Part shown: positions 6,631 through 20,344 of the stretch, in pieces | Numbering within the stretch: position 1 is the stretch's first letter | Layout: each line of letters opens with the position of its first letter | Origin: a virus | DNA: 23,830 nucleotides | IMG/VR virus record: IMGVR_UViG_3300025767_000125 | Span: 1 to 23,830 of that record | Direction: 5' to 3' (one strand) | The notes under the pieces: model-generated | What the model saw: only the letters and a program-made list of their open reading frames with translations | Told to the model about the DNA's origin: nothing | The model's database searches: none | Made by a program: the position numbers and the translations under genes

Positions 6631-8508
6631 TTATCTTAACCTCATCTTTAATGCTTCATTAACTATATTGTGTATTGTCCCAGATCCGTTATCTACGATA
6701 AGCTCGAACTGTATTTCTCTATCTTTTAAAATTTTTGAAGAATAAAAATCAAAAACATATTTTTCACCATCGAAATACAGTTTATTAGCTTCACTTACAC
6801 CTTCAATAAAATATTTTCCTGTTGCAATATCTTTAACAGAATAATACATGTCGCCTACGTTAACAGATGTTCTTGACATTTTCTTTCTTGTAGCTGTATA
6901 TTTCTCGTCTCTATCAATAAGAGAAACACTGAACGTCATTATATCGTCACTCGCAAGCTTTATTTCAGATGAATTACCTGTAATAACTACATACAGTCTA
7001 TCTAAGCTATCTAAAGTTTTTATAGATCTATAATATACTTCATCTTTTTCGATTACAAACTCTTTATTGTTTTTAATGCCGTATATTGTTATATCAACTT
7101 TAAGCTCATTATTTGTTATATTGTTTAAAATATTTTCATCAAATCTACTAACGTCTGTGCTTATTGAGCTAACTACTAGATGATTGTCCATAGTGTTGCC
7201 ATAAGTATCTGTTTTTTCTACCATTTGTCTATCAAAAAGAATATAGTCTTCATATGACATTGTCTGATCGTTATATCTGCTTATACTACCTCTACAAAAA
7301 ACTTGGTAGACGTTATTGTTGTCTATGAAGGCATCTATTCCTTTTACGCTTGTCTCAAAATTATTTTGAGAGTCAAATGTTTTTATGCTTGACTTTTTTA
7401 TACTATCTTTAAGATGCAAAACAAGCGTAGGTCTTAATATTAAGTTAGATACGTGCCTTGAAGCAAATCTTCTTACGAAATAAGTATTTTTATCAATAAT
7501 CATTTCGCTGCTAATACCAATTGCGAAACCTTTGTGTGATGCTATGTTGCCTAAAGCAAAGTTATCTAGCAAAGAAACAATAGATTCTGTAACATCTATA
7601 GACAAGTCTTCGTTTTTAATAGAAGTAGTTGTAAAAAACTCATCTCCTACTTCATGTCCTGTAGTAAGTTCACAAGGAACCAAGAAGTCAGTTGTTGTAC
7701 CATCGCTATTTTTCTGTAAAGTAACAAAATTACAATATCCTGGGTCTGACATTGTATTTACATCTGTACCATATCCTTCGTCGAAGTCTTTTAGCATTTC
7801 CCAACAAGATAGATCAACAGCCTCAGGTGAAGTATTTCCTAAGTTTACACTTCTAAGCAAAAGTTCAGCTTTGACTACAGCGTTACTTGAAATATTTTTA
7901 GACAAAAGTTTTTCAAAGTCTGGCCTTATAAAGCAGTAAGACTTTTCTACACAAGAAAAGTCCTTATAAGACAAAATGTTTAAGTTGTTGTTTGTAATTG
8001 TTAGTTTAGCTTCTTTATGAGCGTCATTTGTTTTTATAAAGACTATTGACTCTATATTGTCGTATGCACAAGATATTTTTCCTGCTATGTTACCTGAAGG
8101 ACCATCTTGTGTAACATTGCCTATGTTTTCGCATGTTTGACAAAAAATATTTAATATTGTATTTATGTCGTATCTGCTACCTATAGCACCTATAGGAGAA
8201 CCAATAGTATCTTCTCCAGGAATATTAGAACCTAAAATAAAATCTTCTAAGTTTTCTGTTATGAATTTTACACTAACATATTTTGAACCATCAAGCTCAA
8301 TATTTATTTGAATATTGTCAAATATGTTAGTGCCGTTAGTATCTGTAGGATAAAAATAAGAAGTATATTTTCCTCTATCATTTTCGTTGTATAGTTTAAA
8401 TATATCTAGCGTAGAAGCTCTTCCAAAGTTAGAATATGCACCATCAGTTCTTCCAATATTTCTATCTGTAACGTATGTGTCTTTTTGAATTTCGATAGGT
8501 AAAATCAT
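6631..8508 (-). CDS. Baseplate/fibre protein with DNRLRE-like domain
   Basis: A 625-residue protein between the gp6-like and gp7/gpI-like genes. The N-terminus (about 7-40) reads QKDTYVTDRNIGRTDGAYSN and then FGRASTLDIF. Around 205-380 it carries VVKAELLLRSVNLGN, a long loop with DVTESIVSLL, and FVRRFASRHVSNLILRPTLV before a closing LHL strand. The pairing 'DTY(V/I)...N-G...L' at the start with 'F-SR...RP-L-L-L' at the end is the pattern of DNRLRE domains, beta-sandwich modules of surface and adhesion proteins. The C-terminal 240 residues are beta-rich with ITGNSSEIKL and FSVSLIDRDEKY, possibly immunoglobulin-like. It starts at an ATG with AGGAA six bases upstream, three bases after the stop of the gp6-like gene. 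A baseplate-mounted structural or adhesion part is likely. No T4 counterpart is evident. Confidence 0.6.
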   Translation of the reverse strand: MILPIEIQKDTYVTDRNIGRTDGAYSNFGRASTLDIFKLYNENDRGKYTSYFYPTDTNGTNIFDNIQINIELDGSKYVSVKFITENLEDFILGSNIPGEDTIGSPIGAIGSRYDINTILNIFCQTCENIGNVTQDGPSGNIAGKISCAYDNIESIVFIKTNDAHKEAKLTITNNNLNILSYKDFSCVEKSYCFIRPDFEKLLSKNISSNAVVKAELLLRSVNLGNTSPEAVDLSCWEMLKDFDEGYGTDVNTMSDPGYCNFVTLQKNSDGTTTDFLVPCELTTGHEVGDEFFTTTSIKNEDLSIDVTESIVSLLDNFALGNIASHKGFAIGISSEMIIDKNTYFVRRFASRHVSNLILRPTLVLHLKDSIKKSSIKTFDSQNNFETSVKGIDAFIDNNNVYQVFCRGSISRYNDQTMSYEDYILFDRQMVEKTDTYGNTMDNHLVVSSISTDVSRFDENILNNITNNELKVDITIYGIKNNKEFVIEKDEVYYRSIKTLDSLDRLYVVITGNSSEIKLASDDIMTFSVSLIDRDEKYTATRKKMSRTSVNVGDMYYSVKDIATGKYFIEGVSEANKLYFDGEKYVFDFYSSKILKDREIQFELIVDNGSGTIHNIVNEALKMRLR

Positions 8509-10906: not shown

Positions 10907-10916
10907 AATAAATATG
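10907..10916 (-). promoter_or_regulatory. Candidate promoter element CATATTTATT upstream of the gp25-like gene
   Basis: On the minus strand the 37-base gap between the spike and gp25-like genes reads CATATTTATT followed by AAAAAG, ending about 20 bases before the gp25-like ATG. Nearly the same sequence, CATATTTAATT then AAAAA, precedes the plus-strand gene at 17148. This is the only sizeable gap in the baseplate run, so a promoter is plausible. The canonical T4 late box TATAAATA is absent here. It is assigned by position and repetition only. Confidence 0.3.
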
Positions 10917-12503: not shown

Positions 12504-12872
12504 TTATTGGTTTATTTTATTAAATATGTCATCCTCTGATATTGTCTCTGATTTTTCTTGCTCTTTTGAAATAAGCTCTGCAAGCTTTAAAATCTGGTCG
12601 TTAGACTTTGACATTCTTTCTAAATATTTTGATATTACTGCGCCTATATTCATGTGATCGTTAAGGCCACCTGAAAGATTCAAGTAAGCATCAGTAAACA
12701 TCATTTTTGCTTTCTCTCTATCTTCTAGCGAGTTTTCGTATATTTCTTTCCATAGATGCTTTTTTTTATCTTCTATAGAATCTATATTATCTAAAAGATC
12801 TGAGAAGTTTTTTATTTTTACTTCTTTTTCATTTTGCTTGTCAATTTTTTTTGATATATCTTCGACGTTCAT
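12504..12872 (-). CDS. Probable terminase small subunit, gp16-like
   Basis: A 122-residue, almost wholly helical, charged protein. The central part reads LWKEIYENSLEDREKAKMMF, then a helix to DHMNIGAVISKYLERMSKSN and a final DQILKLAELISKEQEK. T4-type gp16 proteins share this layout: a helix, a short break followed by a residue pair like 'DH/RH', then a helix ending 'MT-N-EILKLHK'. In T4-like phages gp16 forms the ring that recognises DNA for packaging. The gene overlaps the sigma-factor gene by four bases (ATGA), so expression is coupled. The large terminase is not in the window. Alternatives are a late-transcription co-activator (gp33-like, which would fit next to a gp55-like gene) or an unrelated small helical protein. 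I find no gp33 signature. Confidence 0.45.
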   Translation of the reverse strand: MNVEDISKKIDKQNEKEVKIKNFSDLLDNIDSIEDKKKHLWKEIYENSLEDREKAKMMFTDAYLNLSGGLNDHMNIGAVISKYLERMSKSNDQILKLAELISKEQEKSETISEDDIFNKINQ

Positions 12873-13603
12873 TTTTTATAGTCCTCTAGGTTTACAAGCT
12901 TGTCTTCGCCTTGTATTTCTCTATATATTTTTCTTATTCTAGACAAAGAGCTACTAAGCTCAGCGTTATTAAGTCCTGATATTTCTCTCATGTAAACAAA
13001 AACTGCACGTTTATTAAAAAAGTTAACTTTATCGATATTATCGTAAAGATGACGTATAGCCTCTACACACTTTTTATCTCTAGGTGACTTTATTTTGCAT
13101 TCTATAATGTCTATTACCTTATAAATTCCTACAATAAAGTCTTCTCTGTCGTCTGCAGGATCTTCTTCAACAATATTGTCTCCAAACAAAAACTTCTTTT
13201 CTTCTTTTGTTAGTGACTCATGATTGTTTATGTCTACATTTCTTTTATAGTTTTTGTAAAGTCTTCTAGACTGTATAGTTAACCAGTTTTTTGCAACAAC
13301 ATTAAAGTAAGAAAATGCTTTTGTTCCTTTGCTTTCATCCCATTTATGTATTGTCTCAAATAAAAATGAAACACAATCAGACTTAAAATGATCCATTTCT
13401 TCGCCAAAGCTTTTATAGTTATAGACTGTTACTAAGTTGCATACTAATTCTGTAAAAGCTGGATGTATATATTTTTCATATATTCGATTTTTTTCAAAGT
13501 CAGAGCTACAATTTTTAAACTTTATTATATAACCTTCTGTGTCTTTAGTAAAGTAGTAGTTTGACTTCTTTTTTTTTTGAATAATATTTTCTTTTTCTTC
13601 CAT
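12869..13603 (-). CDS. 55: Late-transcription sigma factor, gp55-like
   Basis: A 244-residue protein with a sigma-70 region 2 signature: HKWDESKGTKAFSYFNVVAK at about residues 87-106, then NWL and a basic helix RRLYKNYKR. The 'F/WD-SKGTKAFSYFN-IAKNW' string is highly characteristic of T4 gp55-type sigma factors. These direct host RNA polymerase to late promoters with the help of the sliding clamp and a co-activator. The C-terminal half is helical (VRDKKCVEAIRHLY-like, MREISGLNNAELSSSLSRIRK) and may act as a reduced DNA-binding or clamp-contacting part. T4 gp55 is 185 aa, so this version is longer. It is separated by one base from the small membrane-protein gene and overlaps the next gene by four bases. 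A run of ten A's lies in codons 9-12. Confidence 0.85.
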   Translation of the reverse strand: MEEKENIIQKKKKSNYYFTKDTEGYIIKFKNCSSDFEKNRIYEKYIHPAFTELVCNLVTVYNYKSFGEEMDHFKSDCVSFLFETIHKWDESKGTKAFSYFNVVAKNWLTIQSRRLYKNYKRNVDINNHESLTKEEKKFLFGDNIVEEDPADDREDFIVGIYKVIDIIECKIKSPRDKKCVEAIRHLYDNIDKVNFFNKRAVFVYMREISGLNNAELSSSLSRIRKIYREIQGEDKLVNLEDYKK

Positions 13604-13604
13604 T

Positions 13605-13886
13605 TTACATTTCTTCTTCTTCCAACTCTTGAAGCGAAAGTTTTGCTGCTACCTCAATTACTGCTTGTCTTGCATCTTTTATGTCATTAAGGACTTGCCT
13701 TATTTCTCTACTGTCATGAAAAATAGGTATTTGCAATACCTCATTTATTTTCTCGTATTTTTCATCAAGAATTTCTAAACTTTGCTCAATGTTTTGCTGT
13801 ATGCTAATTATTATAATCGCAAACTTAACACAGTAAAAGATACTAATTGCAAGCATTAAACTTAACAATATCACTGCATATATCAT
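13605..13886 (-). CDS. Small membrane-anchored coiled-coil protein
   Basis: A 93-residue protein with one strongly hydrophobic N-terminal segment (about 2-28, AVILLSLMLAISIFYCVKFA and following isoleucines). It is followed by a helical, heptad-like region (IEQSLEILDEKYEKINEVL), a short break with PIFHDSREI, and a second helix (VLNDIKDARQAVIEVAAKL). The end is very acidic. There is no cleavable signal motif, so it is probably an inner-membrane anchor with a cytoplasmic helical tail. Similar short proteins with a TM segment followed by two helices occur near late-gene regulators in T4-like phages, but I do not know a function. It overlaps the upstream glycosyltransferase gene by four bases (ATGA) and precedes the sigma gene by one base. 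Confidence 0.7.
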   Translation of the reverse strand: MIYAVILLSLMLAISIFYCVKFAIIIISIQQNIEQSLEILDEKYEKINEVLQIPIFHDSREIRQVLNDIKDARQAVIEVAAKLSLQELEEEEM

Positions 13887-15004
13887 TTTACACCTACTAA
13901 TTCTTTGTACATTGACATTATCTCAGTTTTTCTGTAAATGTTTAAAGTATTACATGATTTTAATTTTGATAGTTGATCAAAAAAAGAAGATTTGTTATAT
14001 AAAGCCCATTCTGAATTTTTCTCTATAAAAGGCAAATTTATTTTTACTTTTTGCAACGAATAGTCTACAGGATAATACCCGTCATAATAGCTTAAATATT
14101 CAGTGTGTGCTGACCAGTTTGTTGCTATTACAGGTATTGCTGATACTGCTGCCTCAAGTGCGGGTATACAAAAACACTCTCCTTTTGTTAGCAGTATAAA
14201 AGCTTTTATAAAACTATTATCATATAACTTTCTAGTTTCATAGTCTGTAAGAGTTCCAGTAATAAATACAACGTCAATATATTTGCCATTAGAAAATATT
14301 TCTTTATAAAAACTTTCTTTAAACATACTAATGTCTCTGCTGCTGTTATGTCCTATAGAAGTTTTTATAAAAACTGTGCAACTTTCTGTTTTTGTTCTAT
14401 AATATTCATTAATATCACTTAACGTTGACAAAATAGACTTTCTGTCTTTAAAATTTTCAAATGAAGAAGTCTTGCCTACTATAAGATAATTGTCTAATGT
14501 ATCACAGTTTTTGTAAAAATCAAGTTTTTTAAATTCATTGTCAATATAGAATTCTTCACTTAAAAACAAAGGAATTACATCAATATCAGTAGTTATATCA
14601 ATATTATTAATTTTTGCTGAAGTTATAAAAGAAGATTTTGCGTGTGAAGAAGGTACAATTACTCTATTCATATTGTTTACAAATTCTAACCAAGACTTTT
14701 CGCAAAAAGTTGTTTCTATTCCTGCTGTTACACCTATATTGTATGACGCAATATTTTTATTCCACTCATTAGGAAGCAAAACTTGAAATGATATGTCATA
14801 ACTGTCAGACTTTTTATGACAATACTGTAGTATTTCTTTTGATTTTTTTTTGTTTACAAGATATGATCTAATATCATCACCCCATCTTGTATCCTCAACA
14901 TATAAATCTATGTCTAATACTTTTAGTGACTCAAATACTTGTCTTGCATGATTGCCGTACCCTGTAGAAGTAAGCAGAGGACCTCTTAAAAGAACTTTCT
15001 TCAT
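13883..15004 (-). CDS. Glycosyltransferase, GT-B fold (GT4-like)
   Basis: A 373-residue protein with a GT-B layout. The N-terminal strand VLLRGPLLTSTGYGNHARQV at residues 4-23 forms the acceptor-side loop. IVPSSHAKSSFITS at 116-129 is the typical 'V-SE/SW---' motif. A nucleotide-sugar domain follows, with YLIVGKTSSFENFKDRK and LTKGECFCIPALEAAVSAIP. The E-x7-E pair (Glu276 and Glu284) is the donor-binding motif of GT4-type retaining enzymes. It would transfer a sugar from a nucleotide sugar in the cytoplasm. The acceptor cannot be read from sequence; virion proteins, phage DNA or host surface glycans are all possible. ATGA overlaps on both sides couple it to a second glycosyltransferase and to the membrane protein. 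No signal peptide or TM segment is seen. Confidence 0.82.
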   Translation of the reverse strand: MKKVLLRGPLLTSTGYGNHARQVFESLKVLDIDLYVEDTRWGDDIRSYLVNKKKSKEILQYCHKKSDSYDISFQVLLPNEWNKNIASYNIGVTAGIETTFCEKSWLEFVNNMNRVIVPSSHAKSSFITSAKINNIDITTDIDVIPLFLSEEFYIDNEFKKLDFYKNCDTLDNYLIVGKTSSFENFKDRKSILSTLSDINEYYRTKTESCTVFIKTSIGHNSSRDISMFKESFYKEIFSNGKYIDVVFITGTLTDYETRKLYDNSFIKAFILLTKGECFCIPALEAAVSAIPVIATNWSAHTEYLSYYDGYYPVDYSLQKVKINLPFIEKNSEWALYNKSSFFDQLSKLKSCNTLNIYRKTEIMSMYKELVGVK

Positions 15005-16230
15005 ATTTTTGTAACTCTATACTTTGTTTTATTTTTCCAATTAACAATTGTTTTTTCTATTGACACGTCCCAGTCTATTATCATTTTACCATAACTAAAC
15101 TCTTCAGAAGCGTATTTGTAGCTTTTTTCACAAATACTTTCATATTCTTCTTTTTTGTTTTTCCAAATGTCGTAAAGCTTAAATATAGAATTTGATATAT
15201 TTTCATGTGAAGCAAAGTCTTCATAGATGTAATGGACTTCTTGATTACCATTAATCACAGAAACATCTGGATATATCGCGACACCATTTTCTGTGCCATC
15301 ATTATGGTTTATTATTTGTCTCTTCAGCCCGCCTGTAACCATTGCAATTCCAGGCTTTTTGCAGCAAAGACCTTCTAATATATTTAATCCAAAACCTTCA
15401 GCGTGACTAATGTTTATTGTTGCATCACTAATATTATACATTACGTTAATAAGAGAATTATTTAATTTATCTACAGAAAACTTTACATTTTTAGTAATGT
15501 TTAAATACTCTGCTATTTCTTCAAGATTATATCCTGATGGGTTGTTAACGTCTGTATGCATAATTAGTATTGCATCTTTTTCTATTGTTTTGTCTAAAAA
15601 CTTTTTCCAAGAAAACAATAGGTCTGCGCCTCTTTTTCTTAGTATGTTTCTGTTTATCCATAAAACTATAAACTTGTTTTTTTCTTCACCCAATATAGCT
15701 TCTTTGTTTTTAAAAATATCTTTCTTTTCCATTGGATATAACACGGTATTTGGTATACTGTGTGGTATAAAAGATGTTTTATTAGCAAAATTTTCTTTGC
15801 ACATTTCGTAAGTTAAGTAAGAGTGACAGTTTATTTGATCAACACTGTCGTAGACATAATCATTAAATCTAGGAGTTGGCATATTATCCCACACGTGCCA
15901 ATATATTATAGGACAAAACTCTCTTATGCTTTGCTCTCTATTGAAAATACTACTAAAAAATCTAGGATCATTAACAAGAATAATTGCATCTATATGATTT
16001 AATGAAACATATTCTAGAACTTGATTTCCTGTAGGAAATCCTACGTTATAAATTATTTTTAGATTTTCATTAATAATTTCTGTTTTGTTTTCGCCACTTA
16101 CTACTACTCCTATTTGAGTTATATTATATTTGCCTGTGCTTATCAAACCTTGAGTCAAATATAAAGATTGCAATGCAACGCCTGAAGTTGTTTTGATGTT
16201 GTCACTTATAAGCAATATATTTTTCTTCAT
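15001..16230 (-). CDS. Glycosyltransferase, GT-B fold (GT4-like)
   Basis: A 409-residue protein. The N-terminus NILLISDNIKTTSGVALQSL (4-23) is the classic first strand and glycine loop of GT4-type enzymes. The middle has IYWHVWDNMPTPRFND and SFIPHSIP (153-160), followed by the second Rossmann domain: FIVLWINRNILRKRGADLLF (187-206), ILIMHTD, and ISHAEGFGLNILEGLCCKKP (274-293). The E-x7-E pair is Glu278 and Glu286. It is related in type to the neighbouring glycosyltransferase (13883-15004), but the two are too different to be a recent duplication. Four-base ATGA overlaps join it to the nuclease gene upstream and to the second glycosyltransferase downstream. Substrate and acceptor are unknown; no membrane segment is present. 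Confidence 0.83.
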   Translation of the reverse strand: MKKNILLISDNIKTTSGVALQSLYLTQGLISTGKYNITQIGVVVSGENKTEIINENLKIIYNVGFPTGNQVLEYVSLNHIDAIILVNDPRFFSSIFNREQSIREFCPIIYWHVWDNMPTPRFNDYVYDSVDQINCHSYLTYEMCKENFANKTSFIPHSIPNTVLYPMEKKDIFKNKEAILGEEKNKFIVLWINRNILRKRGADLLFSWKKFLDKTIEKDAILIMHTDVNNPSGYNLEEIAEYLNITKNVKFSVDKLNNSLINVMYNISDATINISHAEGFGLNILEGLCCKKPGIAMVTGGLKRQIINHNDGTENGVAIYPDVSVINGNQEVHYIYEDFASHENISNSIFKLYDIWKNKKEEYESICEKSYKYASEEFSYGKMIIDWDVSIEKTIVNWKNKTKYRVTKI

Positions 16231-17060: not shown

Positions 17061-17147
17061 AATAATCTCTCTTTTTTTATATTATAATACAAATGAAATT
17101 AATATGCACATATTTAATTAAAAATGACACATGTGAGGTAAAATAAA
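17061..17147. promoter_or_regulatory. Divergent promoter region with AT-rich dyad
   Basis: An 87-base gap between two divergently transcribed units. At 17097-17119 there is an imperfect dyad: CATATTAATT on the minus strand and CATATTTAATT on the plus strand, so each gene has a copy pointing towards it. The minus strand also has TATAAT at 17086-17081, near the nuclease gene, which could be a host-type -10 box. On the plus strand GAGGT at 17135-17139 sits eight bases before the ATG at 17148. Both transcription units must start here unless they are read from far upstream. The dyad might alternatively be an operator. Confidence 0.45.
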
Positions 17148-18203
17148 ATGGCAGACATTGAAAAATTTATTTATTATAATAACGGTTCGAAAAAAGTATT
17201 GAAGCCTACTGATAGAGTTGTTATAAGTTCAGGAGGACTTGCATTCGAAGGAGAAACTGATGATAATTTTGAAACACAGTTTGCAGTTCAAGATCCTACA
17301 GCTGACAGAACAGTAACTTTTCCAGATGCTTCAGGTACAGTTTTGTTATCTGACGGTTCTTATACTATGCCGACTTCTGACGGTACTTCTGGACAAGTTC
17401 TTTCTACAGACGGTAACGGAAATATTAGCTTTTCTAATGTTGAAAGCGGAACACAGCAAAGACTTTACTTTCAAGTAAATCAAAATCAAAGCAATCCTAT
17501 AACATTGACAGCACCATCTTCTTCTTACTTCGACGCGTTATATAACGTTAATTGCGCAACAGGATTTCCGTTCGATTTAAATGTTTTTACGCCTAATTCA
17601 GTACCGTCAGGATTTAAAATTACAATAAAAGGCGGAGTAGTTGTAAATGACGTTGTAACTGTAAAATGCACTTCTGGGTTTGTCCTTCAAAGCAATCCTT
17701 CTACAATTTCTACAAACTTTAAAATTAATAGAGCAGGTTATACAAAAACTTTTATTAGCAACGGCTCAGGCTGGTACGAAATAGACGAAAATGAACTTTC
17801 ATATAGCAATGACGTGTACTTAGCAGGAAGAGCTACAAACGACATTCTTTATTGGAACGGAAGTGATTGGCAAAACAAAAACTTAAAAACTGCAGTAGTT
17901 GAAAATGGGTTTATTAATACTGTATTTAGTTCTTCCACAACACTTACAGCGTCTAATAATACTGTTTATATATGTTATACATTATCAAACAATATGGTGA
18001 TAACATTACCATCAAATAGTCCTGCAGGTTCTATAATTGTAGTTAAAAGAGCTAATAGTAATAACACAGTTGCTATAGATCCAGGCGTGGGTTCTATAGA
18101 TGGCTCTACTAACAATTTAGAGCTTCTAAGCGGAACAGAATCAGTAACACTAGTAGCAAGAGGATCATTTAACCAATGGTATAAAATTGGCAGCACGTAC
18201 TAA
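17148..18203 (+). CDS. Fibre-like virion structural protein
   Basis: A 351-residue, beta-rich Ser/Thr/Asn/Gly protein. The N-terminus (KKVLKPTDRVVISSGGLAF at 15-33) looks like an attachment segment. Residues about 47-75 have DPTADRTVTFPDASGTVLLS, a motif common in tail-fibre and appendage proteins, followed by TSDGTSGQVLSTDGNGNISF. Two copies of a small beta module follow. One lies at about 105-215 and ends SGWYEI. The other lies at about 270-348, with MVITLPSNSPAGSIIVVKRA and WYKIGS. A DILYWNGSDW linker lies between them. The same module recurs in the minus-strand fibre genes at 21451 and 22624. It probably encodes a trimeric fibre or head/tail decoration. The start is supported by GAGGT. 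It is the first gene of a four-gene plus-strand island. Confidence 0.7.
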   Translation: MADIEKFIYYNNGSKKVLKPTDRVVISSGGLAFEGETDDNFETQFAVQDPTADRTVTFPDASGTVLLSDGSYTMPTSDGTSGQVLSTDGNGNISFSNVESGTQQRLYFQVNQNQSNPITLTAPSSSYFDALYNVNCATGFPFDLNVFTPNSVPSGFKITIKGGVVVNDVVTVKCTSGFVLQSNPSTISTNFKINRAGYTKTFISNGSGWYEIDENELSYSNDVYLAGRATNDILYWNGSDWQNKNLKTAVVENGFINTVFSSSTTLTASNNTVYICYTLSNNMVITLPSNSPAGSIIVVKRANSNNTVAIDPGVGSIDGSTNNLELLSGTESVTLVARGSFNQWYKIGSTY

Positions 18204-18279
18204 CATTAAGTTGTTAATATAAAAAGAAAAAATTACTTAATATTTATATTTGTCATTCAACAAAAGAAAGGTTTAAGAC

Positions 18280-19692
18280 ATGGCTAATTACTCTGATCAA
18301 TTAGTTGCTATAAGCGGCGGATCAATAAAAAGAATAACGGCTTCAGATTCAATCACACTAACAGCGTCTAGCTTAAGTATGACATCAGGAAGCTTGCGAT
18401 TAGTAGAAGGTGATATTATACTTGAAAGTGGCTCGCTTTCAATAAGTGGCGACGTTGTAACAACAGGAGACTCTTCAGCATCTGCAGGTAGCTTTTCAGG
18501 AAATGTTACTATAGGAGGAACGCTAGAAGTAACTGGAAATACAACGCTAAACGGAGACTTAACAGTTAATGGTACAACAACTTCAGTACAGTCTCAGACG
18601 CTAGAAGTGAAAGATGCTTTTATCAAAGTAGGTGATGGCAATATTTTAGCAGCTAATGCTAAAGACTTAGGTCTTTTATTCAGCATAGGAAATGGTTCTG
18701 CTGAAGATATTGACAATCGTGCAGTTTTTTGGGACTCTTCAGAGTCAGAATTTGCACTTGCTGATGTTGATACATTTAGCGCTACATCTTTTTCTGCAGG
18801 TGATCCTACAGTTGCAGCATACTCACCACTTCGCGCACTTGAATTAAGAGCAGGCGCATTAGGCGGTACTGAGGTTACGTTTGATGCTTCAGGTATTAGC
18901 TCTGCAGCTAGCTTAAGTTTATCTTCTAGCGCAGGCTCTGTTGATTTATCTTCAGCTACTACTATGGAACTTGCTTCAACAGGCGCAATGCATATTAACG
19001 GAACAGCAGCAGTTACTTTAACAGCAGGCGCTGGACTTGATATAAATGTTACCGGTTCAATCACAGCAGACGCTTCTACATCAATTGATTTAAGCTCTAC
19101 GACTACTACTACGATTGATGCAACAGGCGATATGACGCTTACTACAGGCGAAGATTTAATAGTTGCTTCTACTGCAAGCATTGGTTTAACTGCTGGTAGC
19201 ACAATGTCATTAGTAGCAGATACTGATATAAATGTTTCGTCTACAAGCGGATTTATTATTGCTGATGTTGTAGGTGCAGGCATATCATGGTCTGGTATCA
19301 AGTCTTCTTCTACATCTATTGCAGCAGGAATGGTTTTACAGGTTTCAAGCGATGGAACAAATACATATGTTGAAGAATCGACAGGAGACAATATGCCAAT
19401 TGGTGTTTCTTTAGAGTCAGCTGCAGGATTAACATCTGGTGTATATAGCAACAGTTCAATTAAATTGCATACTTTCAGAGGACTTCCTGCGCCTCTATAT
19501 ATGGGTGCTTCAGCGCCTGCAAAGTCAGACAATGGAAGTATCGTATATCTAGACAATGCAAATAGTCACGGAACGCTCACAGCACCTACATCAGGAGTCA
19601 TTTATAGACTAGGTGTTCTTACAGGCGCTGACGGCTCTACTACTACACCAACAGTATTGTGGGATCCTGAGTTCATTGCTGATCTTACTTAA
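18280..19692 (+). CDS. Repetitive beta-structured fibre/appendage protein
   Basis: A 470-residue protein with exceptional Ser/Thr/Ala/Gly content. The N-terminus (SGGSIKRITASDSITLTASS) resembles that of the preceding gene, suggesting the same docking site. Residues about 70-110 read VTIGGTLEVTGNTTLNGDLT, a solenoid-like repeat of 'L-V-G--T--G' type, followed by VKDAFIKVGDGN, a common fibre motif. The middle (about 205-335) consists of short strand repeats such as LSSSAGSVDLSSATTMELAS and TGDMTLTTGEDLIVASTASI, consistent with a beta-helix or stacked beta-prism shaft. The C-terminus (about 340-470) is a more varied domain that probably caps the structure. AAAGG lies eight bases before the ATG. 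Its base composition is visibly richer in G and C than neighbours because of Ala/Gly codons. No endosialidase or S74 peptidase motif is seen. Confidence 0.72.
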   Translation: MANYSDQLVAISGGSIKRITASDSITLTASSLSMTSGSLRLVEGDIILESGSLSISGDVVTTGDSSASAGSFSGNVTIGGTLEVTGNTTLNGDLTVNGTTTSVQSQTLEVKDAFIKVGDGNILAANAKDLGLLFSIGNGSAEDIDNRAVFWDSSESEFALADVDTFSATSFSAGDPTVAAYSPLRALELRAGALGGTEVTFDASGISSAASLSLSSSAGSVDLSSATTMELASTGAMHINGTAAVTLTAGAGLDINVTGSITADASTSIDLSSTTTTTIDATGDMTLTTGEDLIVASTASIGLTAGSTMSLVADTDINVSSTSGFIIADVVGAGISWSGIKSSSTSIAAGMVLQVSSDGTNTYVEESTGDNMPIGVSLESAAGLTSGVYSNSSIKLHTFRGLPAPLYMGASAPAKSDNGSIVYLDNANSHGTLTAPTSGVIYRLGVLTGADGSTTTPTVLWDPEFIADLT

Positions 19693-19700
19693 TACTTAGA

Positions 19701-19757
19701 TTTTAACTTATCCTTTGTGCAGTTATATAATTAATTAAAACAAAGGATAAGTTAAAA
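19701..19757 (+). promoter_or_regulatory. 18-bp perfect stem-loop covering the ribosome binding site, promoter-like loop
   Basis: TTTTAACTTATCCTTTGT at 19701-19718 is the exact reverse complement of ACAAAGGATAAGTTAAAA at 19740-19757. The two are separated by a 21-base loop. The right arm holds the AAGGA Shine-Dalgarno (19742-19746) and the A of the start codon at 19757, so a transcript read through from the upstream gene would hide the start. The loop contains TTATATAATTAATTAAA, which looks like a promoter. There is no T-run after the right arm, so a simple intrinsic terminator is unlikely. Confidence 0.7.
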
Positions 19758-20062
19758 TGAGTGATAGCAAAATTGTCAAAATAGGACTAGGTGAAGCACT
19801 TAGTCGATTTATCAAGCTTAATTTTTTAAAAGCAAGAGGCGTGATAAAGGATACTGACCCTGGCTGGAAAGAGATAGATCTACTTAAAGAAGCAATAGAT
19901 AGTATTAAATTAGATCTTTCTTTTGACTGCGATGGTGACGGAATTCCTGATACTGTTGAGATTTTTGAGAGATCTTCTAAGGATGATTGCTGCAGAGTCA
20001 TCAAAGGTGATTCAGCAAAAAAGCCTAGTGCAAGAAGAAGAAATACAAAAAAGAGCAAATAA
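19757..20062 (+). CDS. Small protein with DxDxDG calcium-type loop
   Basis: A 101-residue soluble protein. Residues 5-50 are amphipathic helices (VKIGLGEALSRFIKLNFL, WKEIDLLKEAIDSIKLDL). Residues 57-65 read DCDGDGIPD, followed by TVEIF. This is a DxDxDG-x-x-D loop of the kind that binds calcium in thrombospondin type-3, dockerin and EF-hand-like repeats. After it come a CC pair (78-79) and a strongly basic tail (SAKKPSARRRNTKKSK), which might bind nucleic acid or an acidic surface. I do not recognise the family. Translation should be controlled by the stem-loop that covers its Shine-Dalgarno. Its place directly after the fibre-like gene suggests a small virion or assembly part, but this is not shown. 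The gene at 20066 follows after three bases. Confidence 0.65.
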   Translation: MSDSKIVKIGLGEALSRFIKLNFLKARGVIKDTDPGWKEIDLLKEAIDSIKLDLSFDCDGDGIPDTVEIFERSSKDDCCRVIKGDSAKKPSARRRNTKKSK

Positions 20063-20065
20063 AAA

Positions 20066-20344
20066 ATGTTACCAGAATTGTCTCTGTTTGATCTTCTTTT
20101 TTGTTATGCATTAACATTCGGATTAATGAACAAAGTTACGTTTTTATATGATAGATTTACTATAACAGATAAACTTCTTTCTTGTTCTTACTGTACAGGA
20201 TTCCACTCTGGTTGGATGCTTTATTTTTTTAAAGGAATGAGCATAGAAAAATTTTCTGATGTAAAGCTATTAATTTATTATGCTATGATATCAGCAAGTT
20301 TCTGTTATATTGCTGACATGTTTTTGGTTTATATAGAAGAATAA
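20066..20344 (+). CDS. Small membrane protein with CSYCTGFHSGW motif (DUF1360-like)
   Basis: A 92-residue hydrophobic protein with probable membrane segments at about 7-26 and 66-90 and a shorter hydrophobic stretch near 48-57. Between them lies LLSCSYCTGFHSGW (37-50). A short Cys-x-x-Cys-x-Gly-Phe/His-x-Gly-Trp string like this marks a small family of phage and bacterial membrane proteins that I associate with DUF1360; the biochemical role is unknown. The CxxC could bind metal or be redox active. It begins three bases after the stop of the preceding gene with only a weak ribosome site, so it is probably translated by coupling. It is the last plus-strand gene and ends four bases from the convergent minus-strand gene, with no visible terminator between. 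Confidence 0.7.
   Translation: MLPELSLFDLLFCYALTFGLMNKVTFLYDRFTITDKLLSCSYCTGFHSGWMLYFFKGMSIEKFSDVKLLIYYAMISASFCYIADMFLVYIEE

Follow-up and report, generated by a model that had tools for sequence, protein, structure and literature searches.

A predicted hairpin over the ribosome site of an undescribed phage gene, with a candidate late promoter in its loop

The gene pair behind the fibre genes

The window, meaning the whole stretch of DNA analysed, is a 23,830-base IMG/VR fragment from a marine-type phage. Genes to the left of 17148 lie on the opposite strand, and the plus-strand fibre genes extend from 17148 to 19692. The genes on either side of the gap studied here are the following.

18280–19692, plus strand: fibre-like gene, 470 aa, with a C-terminus conserved in relatives; predicted source of read-through RNA
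19757–20062, plus strand: 101-aa gene, a conserved family with invariant G10, G12, C58 and CCR and with no Pfam or PHROG family
20066–20344, plus strand: 92-aa membrane-type protein with the motif CSYCTGFHxGW (CxxC), conserved partner of the 101-aa gene

When viral contigs were queried with single window proteins, no match was found. The 101-aa/92-aa family was opened up by using the conserved CSYCTGFHxGW motif as the query: a DNA pattern for this motif of the 92-aa protein retrieved 29 viral contig stretches, most of which encode a 101-aa homologue directly upstream. Eleven residues are invariant across 16 members of the 101-aa family (G10, G12, A14, R17, E39, A46, C58, F70, C78, C79 and R80). 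Homologues were found in seven related IMG/VR contigs, with the common order fibre gene, gap, 101-aa family member and CxxC membrane protein. A fibre-like upstream neighbour with a similar C-terminus is present in the A+T-rich relatives and in many others, ending in ...VLWDPEFIADLT in the window and in ...IWMPQFIAD in other contigs. Judged by its sequence, the 101-aa gene is a real gene and a member of an undescribed family. An earlier note on this DNA had called the gene unrecognised, and this held, as neither Pfam nor PHROG has a family for the 101-aa or the 92-aa protein and the phage GenBank collection searched contained no homologue of either.

The sole match in bacterial genomes (L117) was put down to chance resemblance to a repetitive protein. 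The structure model of the 101-aa protein was of moderate quality (pLDDT 74), and a fold search with it gave no significant match; the model of the 92-aa protein was unusable (pLDDT 56). The 92-aa relatives are small membrane-type proteins that keep the CSYCTGFHxGW motif and usually lie immediately behind a member of the 101-aa family. Elsewhere in the window, at 13883–16230 on the minus strand, two adjacent glycosyltransferase-like genes lie inside the baseplate region; for each of them, five of the six contigs from related phages encode a relative.

A hairpin over the start codon and its counterparts in relatives

The gap between the fibre gene and the 101-aa gene contains an inverted repeat that runs into the start of the 101-aa gene.

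19700–19718, plus strand: left (5') arm of the hairpin, ATTTTAACTTATCCTTTGT
19719–19739, plus strand: loop of 21 nt
19723–19739, plus strand: the stretch TTATATAATTAATTAAA within the loop
19740–19758, plus strand: right (3') arm, ACAAAGGATAAGTTAAAAT, which holds the Shine-Dalgarno sequence plus the start-codon bases A and T
19743–19747, plus strand: Shine-Dalgarno sequence AAGGA, inside the right arm

The earlier note had described an exact 18-bp repeat whose right arm took in AAGGA and the first base of the ATG. The repeat is real and exact and does include AAGGA, but it is 19 bp long, with the 21-nt loop between its arms, and covers both the A and the T of the start codon. The runner-up among perfect inverted repeats in the window is 14 bp long (loops of up to 60 allowed), and the longest ones in 15 dinucleotide shuffles of the window were 10–13 bp. 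Folding of the RNA around the hairpin had been proposed as a check, and it predicted occlusion of the start: the segment 19680–19800 gave −31.6 kcal/mol, whereas its shuffled versions gave −16.8 ± 3.1 (z −4.8), and none of 200 shuffles folded as well. Freeing the stretch from the Shine-Dalgarno sequence to the ATG was predicted to cost 24.3 kcal/mol, compared with 3.9 ± 2.3 after shuffling of the upstream flank, where 0 of 1000 shuffles reached the observed value. By start occlusion the 101-aa gene ranked first among the 23 starts in the window.

A hairpin over the ribosome-binding site (RBS) or the ATG was found in the same gap in all seven A+T-rich relatives (G001, locus L036/L044; G002, L020/L042; G003, L025/L043; G004, L053; G005, L027/L040; G006, L033/L041 together with the near-identical L049; and L100), which with the window makes eight of eight loci. 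In the predicted RNA coming from upstream, the Shine-Dalgarno sequence or start codon is paired in a stable helix at every one of them. The hairpin at L036 has 17 bp and a loop of 25, with a 59-nt span equal to that in the window, and its arm ATCTCCAGTAATATATT is unrelated in letters to the window arm ATTTTAACTTATCCTTTGT. Recognisably common arms are shared by G002 and G004, and the arms are otherwise mostly unrelated between loci. Since the hairpin is present at all loci although the arms are mostly unrelated, the pairing itself is what is kept. Formal alignment of the hairpin regions was poor because the arms have diverged, and column-wise covariation counts were therefore left unused. Relatives with compensating arms, which had been named as a further check, do exist in the sense that pairing is kept with different arms, but given the poor alignment this was judged locus by locus.

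In an occlusion control, only the upstream flank was shuffled and the RBS was kept, with 1000 shuffles per locus. As in the window, no shuffle reached the observed occlusion in G001, G004 or G006, while 1 did so in G002, 16 in G003, 31 in G005 and 40 in L100. The combined Fisher p over the eight loci was 4e-12, which overstates the case because the loci are kin. When occlusion was ranked among the predicted starts of each contig, the gene was 1 of 310 in G001, 2 of 18 in G002, 4 of 41 in G003, 4 of 289 in G004, 10 of 64 in G005 and 1 of 67 in G006, next to 1 of 23 in the window (G000). The weaker hairpins are those of G003, G005 and L100. Because the relatives retain the device with mostly different letters, this start-hiding hairpin is very likely functional.

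The same comparison bears on whether the repeat could be a DNA-level feature, either an operator bound by a dimeric protein or a scar without regulatory function, left when template switching during replication duplicated the RBS region. Other starts in the clade also lie in inverted repeats, such as those at 8271 (minus) and 8338 (plus) in G003, as repeated copying would give. However, the phages lack a shared operator sequence, since their arms mostly differ from one to the next, and yet each hairpin still pairs with its local RBS; a neutral scar, moreover, would decay among relatives of the same gene. We regard a DNA-level origin as very improbable.

Twelve relatives that are richer in G+C have a compact G+C-rich hairpin in the same gap, mostly with a T-rich tail (L011, L016, L017, L022, L026, L031, L038, L045, L051, L052, L055 and L108; some of these loci are near copies and a few of the tails are T-poor). 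As in the window, the hairpin is flanked by this fibre gene on one side and by this gene pair on the other. These hairpins have short loops, G+C-rich stems and mostly T-rich tails, and their stems end 13–72 nt before the start and leave it uncovered, whereas the hairpin in the window covers the start. Neither device was clear at five other loci (the L014 group, L028, L029, L035 and L056).

Because the hairpins of the G+C-rich relatives sit there, the gap appears to be a place where the fibre transcript is handled. The hairpin in the window could accordingly be read as closing the fibre mRNA at its 3' end (a terminator, a 3' exonuclease barrier or a processing site) that overlaps the start codon because the gap is short, and the 12 terminator-like loci favour such a reading. 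It is nevertheless unlikely, as neither strand has a T run beyond the stem (GAGTGATAGC / CTAAGTATTA), G–C pairs make up 4 of the 19, the loop is 21 nt long, a simple terminator scan found none at this hairpin, and the right arm reaches the Shine-Dalgarno sequence or the ATG at every A+T-rich locus, unlike the terminators of the relatives. An intrinsic (Rho-independent) terminator was rejected for the window hairpin on its A+T-rich stem, long loop and lack of a T run.

The candidate late promoter and the predicted short RNA

Promoter-like sequences and a possible sigma factor were located at the following positions in the window.

19726–19733, plus strand: TATAATTA within the loop, a putative late promoter octamer matching a motif found de novo upstream of the clade's other genes
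17109–17116, plus strand: CATATTTA, late-promoter-like octamer 31 nt ahead of the fibre gene at 17148
10909–10916, minus strand: CATATTTA, late-promoter-like octamer about 25 nt ahead of a gp25-like gene
12521–12528, minus strand: CATATTTA, late-promoter-like octamer about 25 nt ahead of a 524-aa baseplate-region gene
19703–19731, plus strand: sigma70-like alternative TTAACT-17-TATAAT, with 10 of 12 matches, no commoner than in shuffles
19739 (about ±2), plus strand: predicted transcription start, by analogy with T4 late promoter spacing
12869–13603, minus strand: gp55-like late sigma factor, 43–50% identical to its counterparts at related loci, two of which match PHROG 234

The de novo motif search was run on upstream regions with the RBS masked and with the hairpin loci of the window, G002, G003 and G006 left out; the hairpin region of G005 was absent from the set because the simple gene caller had missed its gene. 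An EM motif run without RBS masking returned the RBS alone. The best de novo motif was ATAATTA.TA, often with a preceding T and usually 18–35 nt before starts. The octamer in the loop agrees with this motif, which bears out the promoter-like loop suggested by the earlier note and makes TATAATTA a candidate late promoter. In the upstream regions of the clade, TATAATTA occurred 27 times in the sense and 13 times in the antisense direction, mostly 15–45 nt before starts. The octamer or a close variant was present in the sense direction in all eight hairpin gaps and in the antisense direction in none (about 1.1 expected), a count that is optimistic because the octamer was noticed partly in the hairpin loci and was widened (Y, W) after these had been seen; the independent motif is the de novo ATAATTA.TA alone. 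In its widened form, YATAWTTA, it has 17 sites in total and lies about 23–31 nt before four window starts (10883 and 12495 on the minus strand, 17148 and 19757 on the plus strand), where our own arithmetic gives a chance expectation of about 0.1. Across the whole window YATAWTTA was not enriched, and repeats of the loop sequence, sought in the window alone, were not found.

The T4 octamer TATAAATA was rejected as the late promoter of this phage, since the window contained 4 copies against 6.3 expected and the upstream regions of the clade contained 20 in sense and 20 in antisense, with no strand bias. The phage itself appears, from its sequence, to use a gp55-type late sigma. Its own gp55-like protein matched PHROG 234 ("late sigma transcription factor") only with an E-value of 0.06, and the link to this family runs through L006 (4e-5) and L004 (4e-4). 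An orthologue of the gp55-like protein was found in the window and in the contigs of all six relatives that were fetched.

T4 late promoters have the TATA box roughly one helical turn upstream of the start (PMC2988020). With the start placed 6 nt past the octamer, the RNA would begin at 19739, the last base ahead of the right arm, and in all eight gaps a start some 6 nt beyond the octamer would yield RNA without the left arm. In the window, the predicted cost of opening the start fell from 20.6 kcal/mol in the long RNA to 1.9 in the short RNA. The cost dropped at all eight loci, and at G005 the decrease from 12.4 to 8.3 kcal/mol left much of the occlusion in the short RNA. The Shine-Dalgarno sequence had an unpaired probability of 0.0 in the predicted read-through RNA; in the predicted short RNA from the window the ATG was free and the Shine-Dalgarno sequence partly free, as part of it can pair downstream. 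An RNA started in the loop and lacking the left arm had been proposed to expose the start, and the folding predictions agree.

Alternatively, the hairpin could occlude the start on every transcript and be opened by temperature, by a protein or by ribosomes arriving from the fibre gene, with TATAATTA being no promoter at all. Occlusion is the best supported part of the picture, and TATA-like words are common in A+T-rich genomes such as these. Yet the octamer is present in all eight gaps on the sense strand only and agrees with the motif upstream of other genes, simple breathing is unlikely for a perfect 19-bp stem, and the loops have little else in common for a protein to read, so that we consider permanent occlusion of this kind quite unlikely.

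A proposed switch and similar devices in the clade

We propose that the locus is probably a translational switch built around a late promoter. Read-through RNA from the fibre genes would hold both arms, fold, and pair the Shine-Dalgarno sequence and start codon of the 101-aa gene, which would then remain untranslated; the CxxC membrane protein gene immediately downstream may be held down along with it. RNA polymerase with the gp55-like sigma would initiate near 19739, downstream of TATAATTA in the loop, and the resulting RNA without the left arm would be translated, so that expression of the gene pair would be freed from the fibre transcript. The transcription start, the translation block, the timing and the effect on the second gene are all steps that we infer.

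In T4, the Shine-Dalgarno sequence and/or AUG of e, soc, 49 and I-TevI is sequestered in a helix on longer transcripts (PMC3014915, PMC2988022), and RNA made from the late promoters of e and I-TevI, in which the 5' strand is missing, is translated (PMC3014915, PMC2988022). The hairpin in the window is likewise predicted to pair the Shine-Dalgarno sequence and start codon on the longer RNA, and by analogy it is probable that it belongs with this mechanism. It differs in occurring in a different phage clade and at an undescribed gene pair, in its long perfect stem, in its candidate promoter (TATAATTA rather than TATAAATA), and in that the upstream RNA comes from late-looking fibre genes, whereas in T4 it comes from early or middle transcripts. 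The RBS is also held in a hairpin in the free-standing homing endonuclease genes mobE of Aeh1 and segB of T4 (PMC2988022). The window similarly has an RBS hairpin ahead of a small gene that lies within a transcription unit, but the 101-aa gene is conserved in place with its neighbour and is not mobile. A homing endonuclease (GIY-YIG or HNH) was rejected as the identity of the 101-aa protein, since the protein and its relatives had no family match and no significant fold match.

The T4-style switch put forward in the earlier note is supported as regards the RBS-occluding hairpin and the promoter-like octamer in the loop, the gp55-like sigma found here also supports it, and the logic of e, soc and I-TevI is well supported as a prediction for this hairpin. 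The timing known from T4 fits less well. Read-through to 19757 should come from the fibre genes alone, because the genes to the left of 17148 run in the opposite direction. The fibre genes bear late-promoter-like sequences of their own, and the upstream fibre transcripts are probably late. Since the fibre genes themselves look late, a timing of the T4 e type, "silent early, on late", is not established here. More likely than a block on early expression is that the switch makes the two genes independent of the fibre transcript, and such uncoupling fits better because relatives put terminator-like hairpins in the same gap. The simplest reading would be that both groups of phages need to keep these two genes separate from the fibre transcript.

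A broader proposal, which we hold tentatively and at somewhat less than an even chance, is that this clade of large marine-type phages uses an RBS-occluding hairpin enclosing a late promoter as a regular regulatory element, which shields the two genes from the fibre operon, a task for which the G+C-rich relatives use a terminator, and which has arisen also at other genes, for example a tail-sheath-like gene. If true, two different mechanisms would keep one regulatory outcome, and a classic T4 control device would be brought to a distant, uncultured phage clade. Pairing that persists through an almost complete change of letters would be strong evidence of selection on RNA structure. The locus would also mark an undescribed conserved gene pair whose expression the phages seemingly keep apart from the fibre transcript, and would yield a testable candidate late promoter in TATAATTA.

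In the G001 contig (IMGVR_UViG_3300033183_000491), a codirectional RBS hairpin was found at the start at 96646 on the minus strand, with an opening cost of 18.1 kcal/mol. Its loop contains TATAATAA, which gives a second case of the hairpin-around-promoter design, and the 1079-aa product of the gene is one that we take, from reading its sequence, to be a tail sheath. Divergent gene pairs in which the two ribosome sites are the two arms of one inverted repeat were found in G003 (8271 minus/8338 plus, where both proteins begin with MAIKNS), G006 (62259 minus/62331 plus), G004 (72714 minus/72782 plus) and G001 (52553 minus/52622 plus). By eye, those in G003, G006 and G004 look like one and the same pair, presumably of a PIN/PhoH-like protein and a small Cys-rich protein. 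Finally, the upstream regions of G001 and G004 show a strong excess of AGTGTAA and TATAATA ahead of genes, and these words probably make up the two parts of an early promoter.
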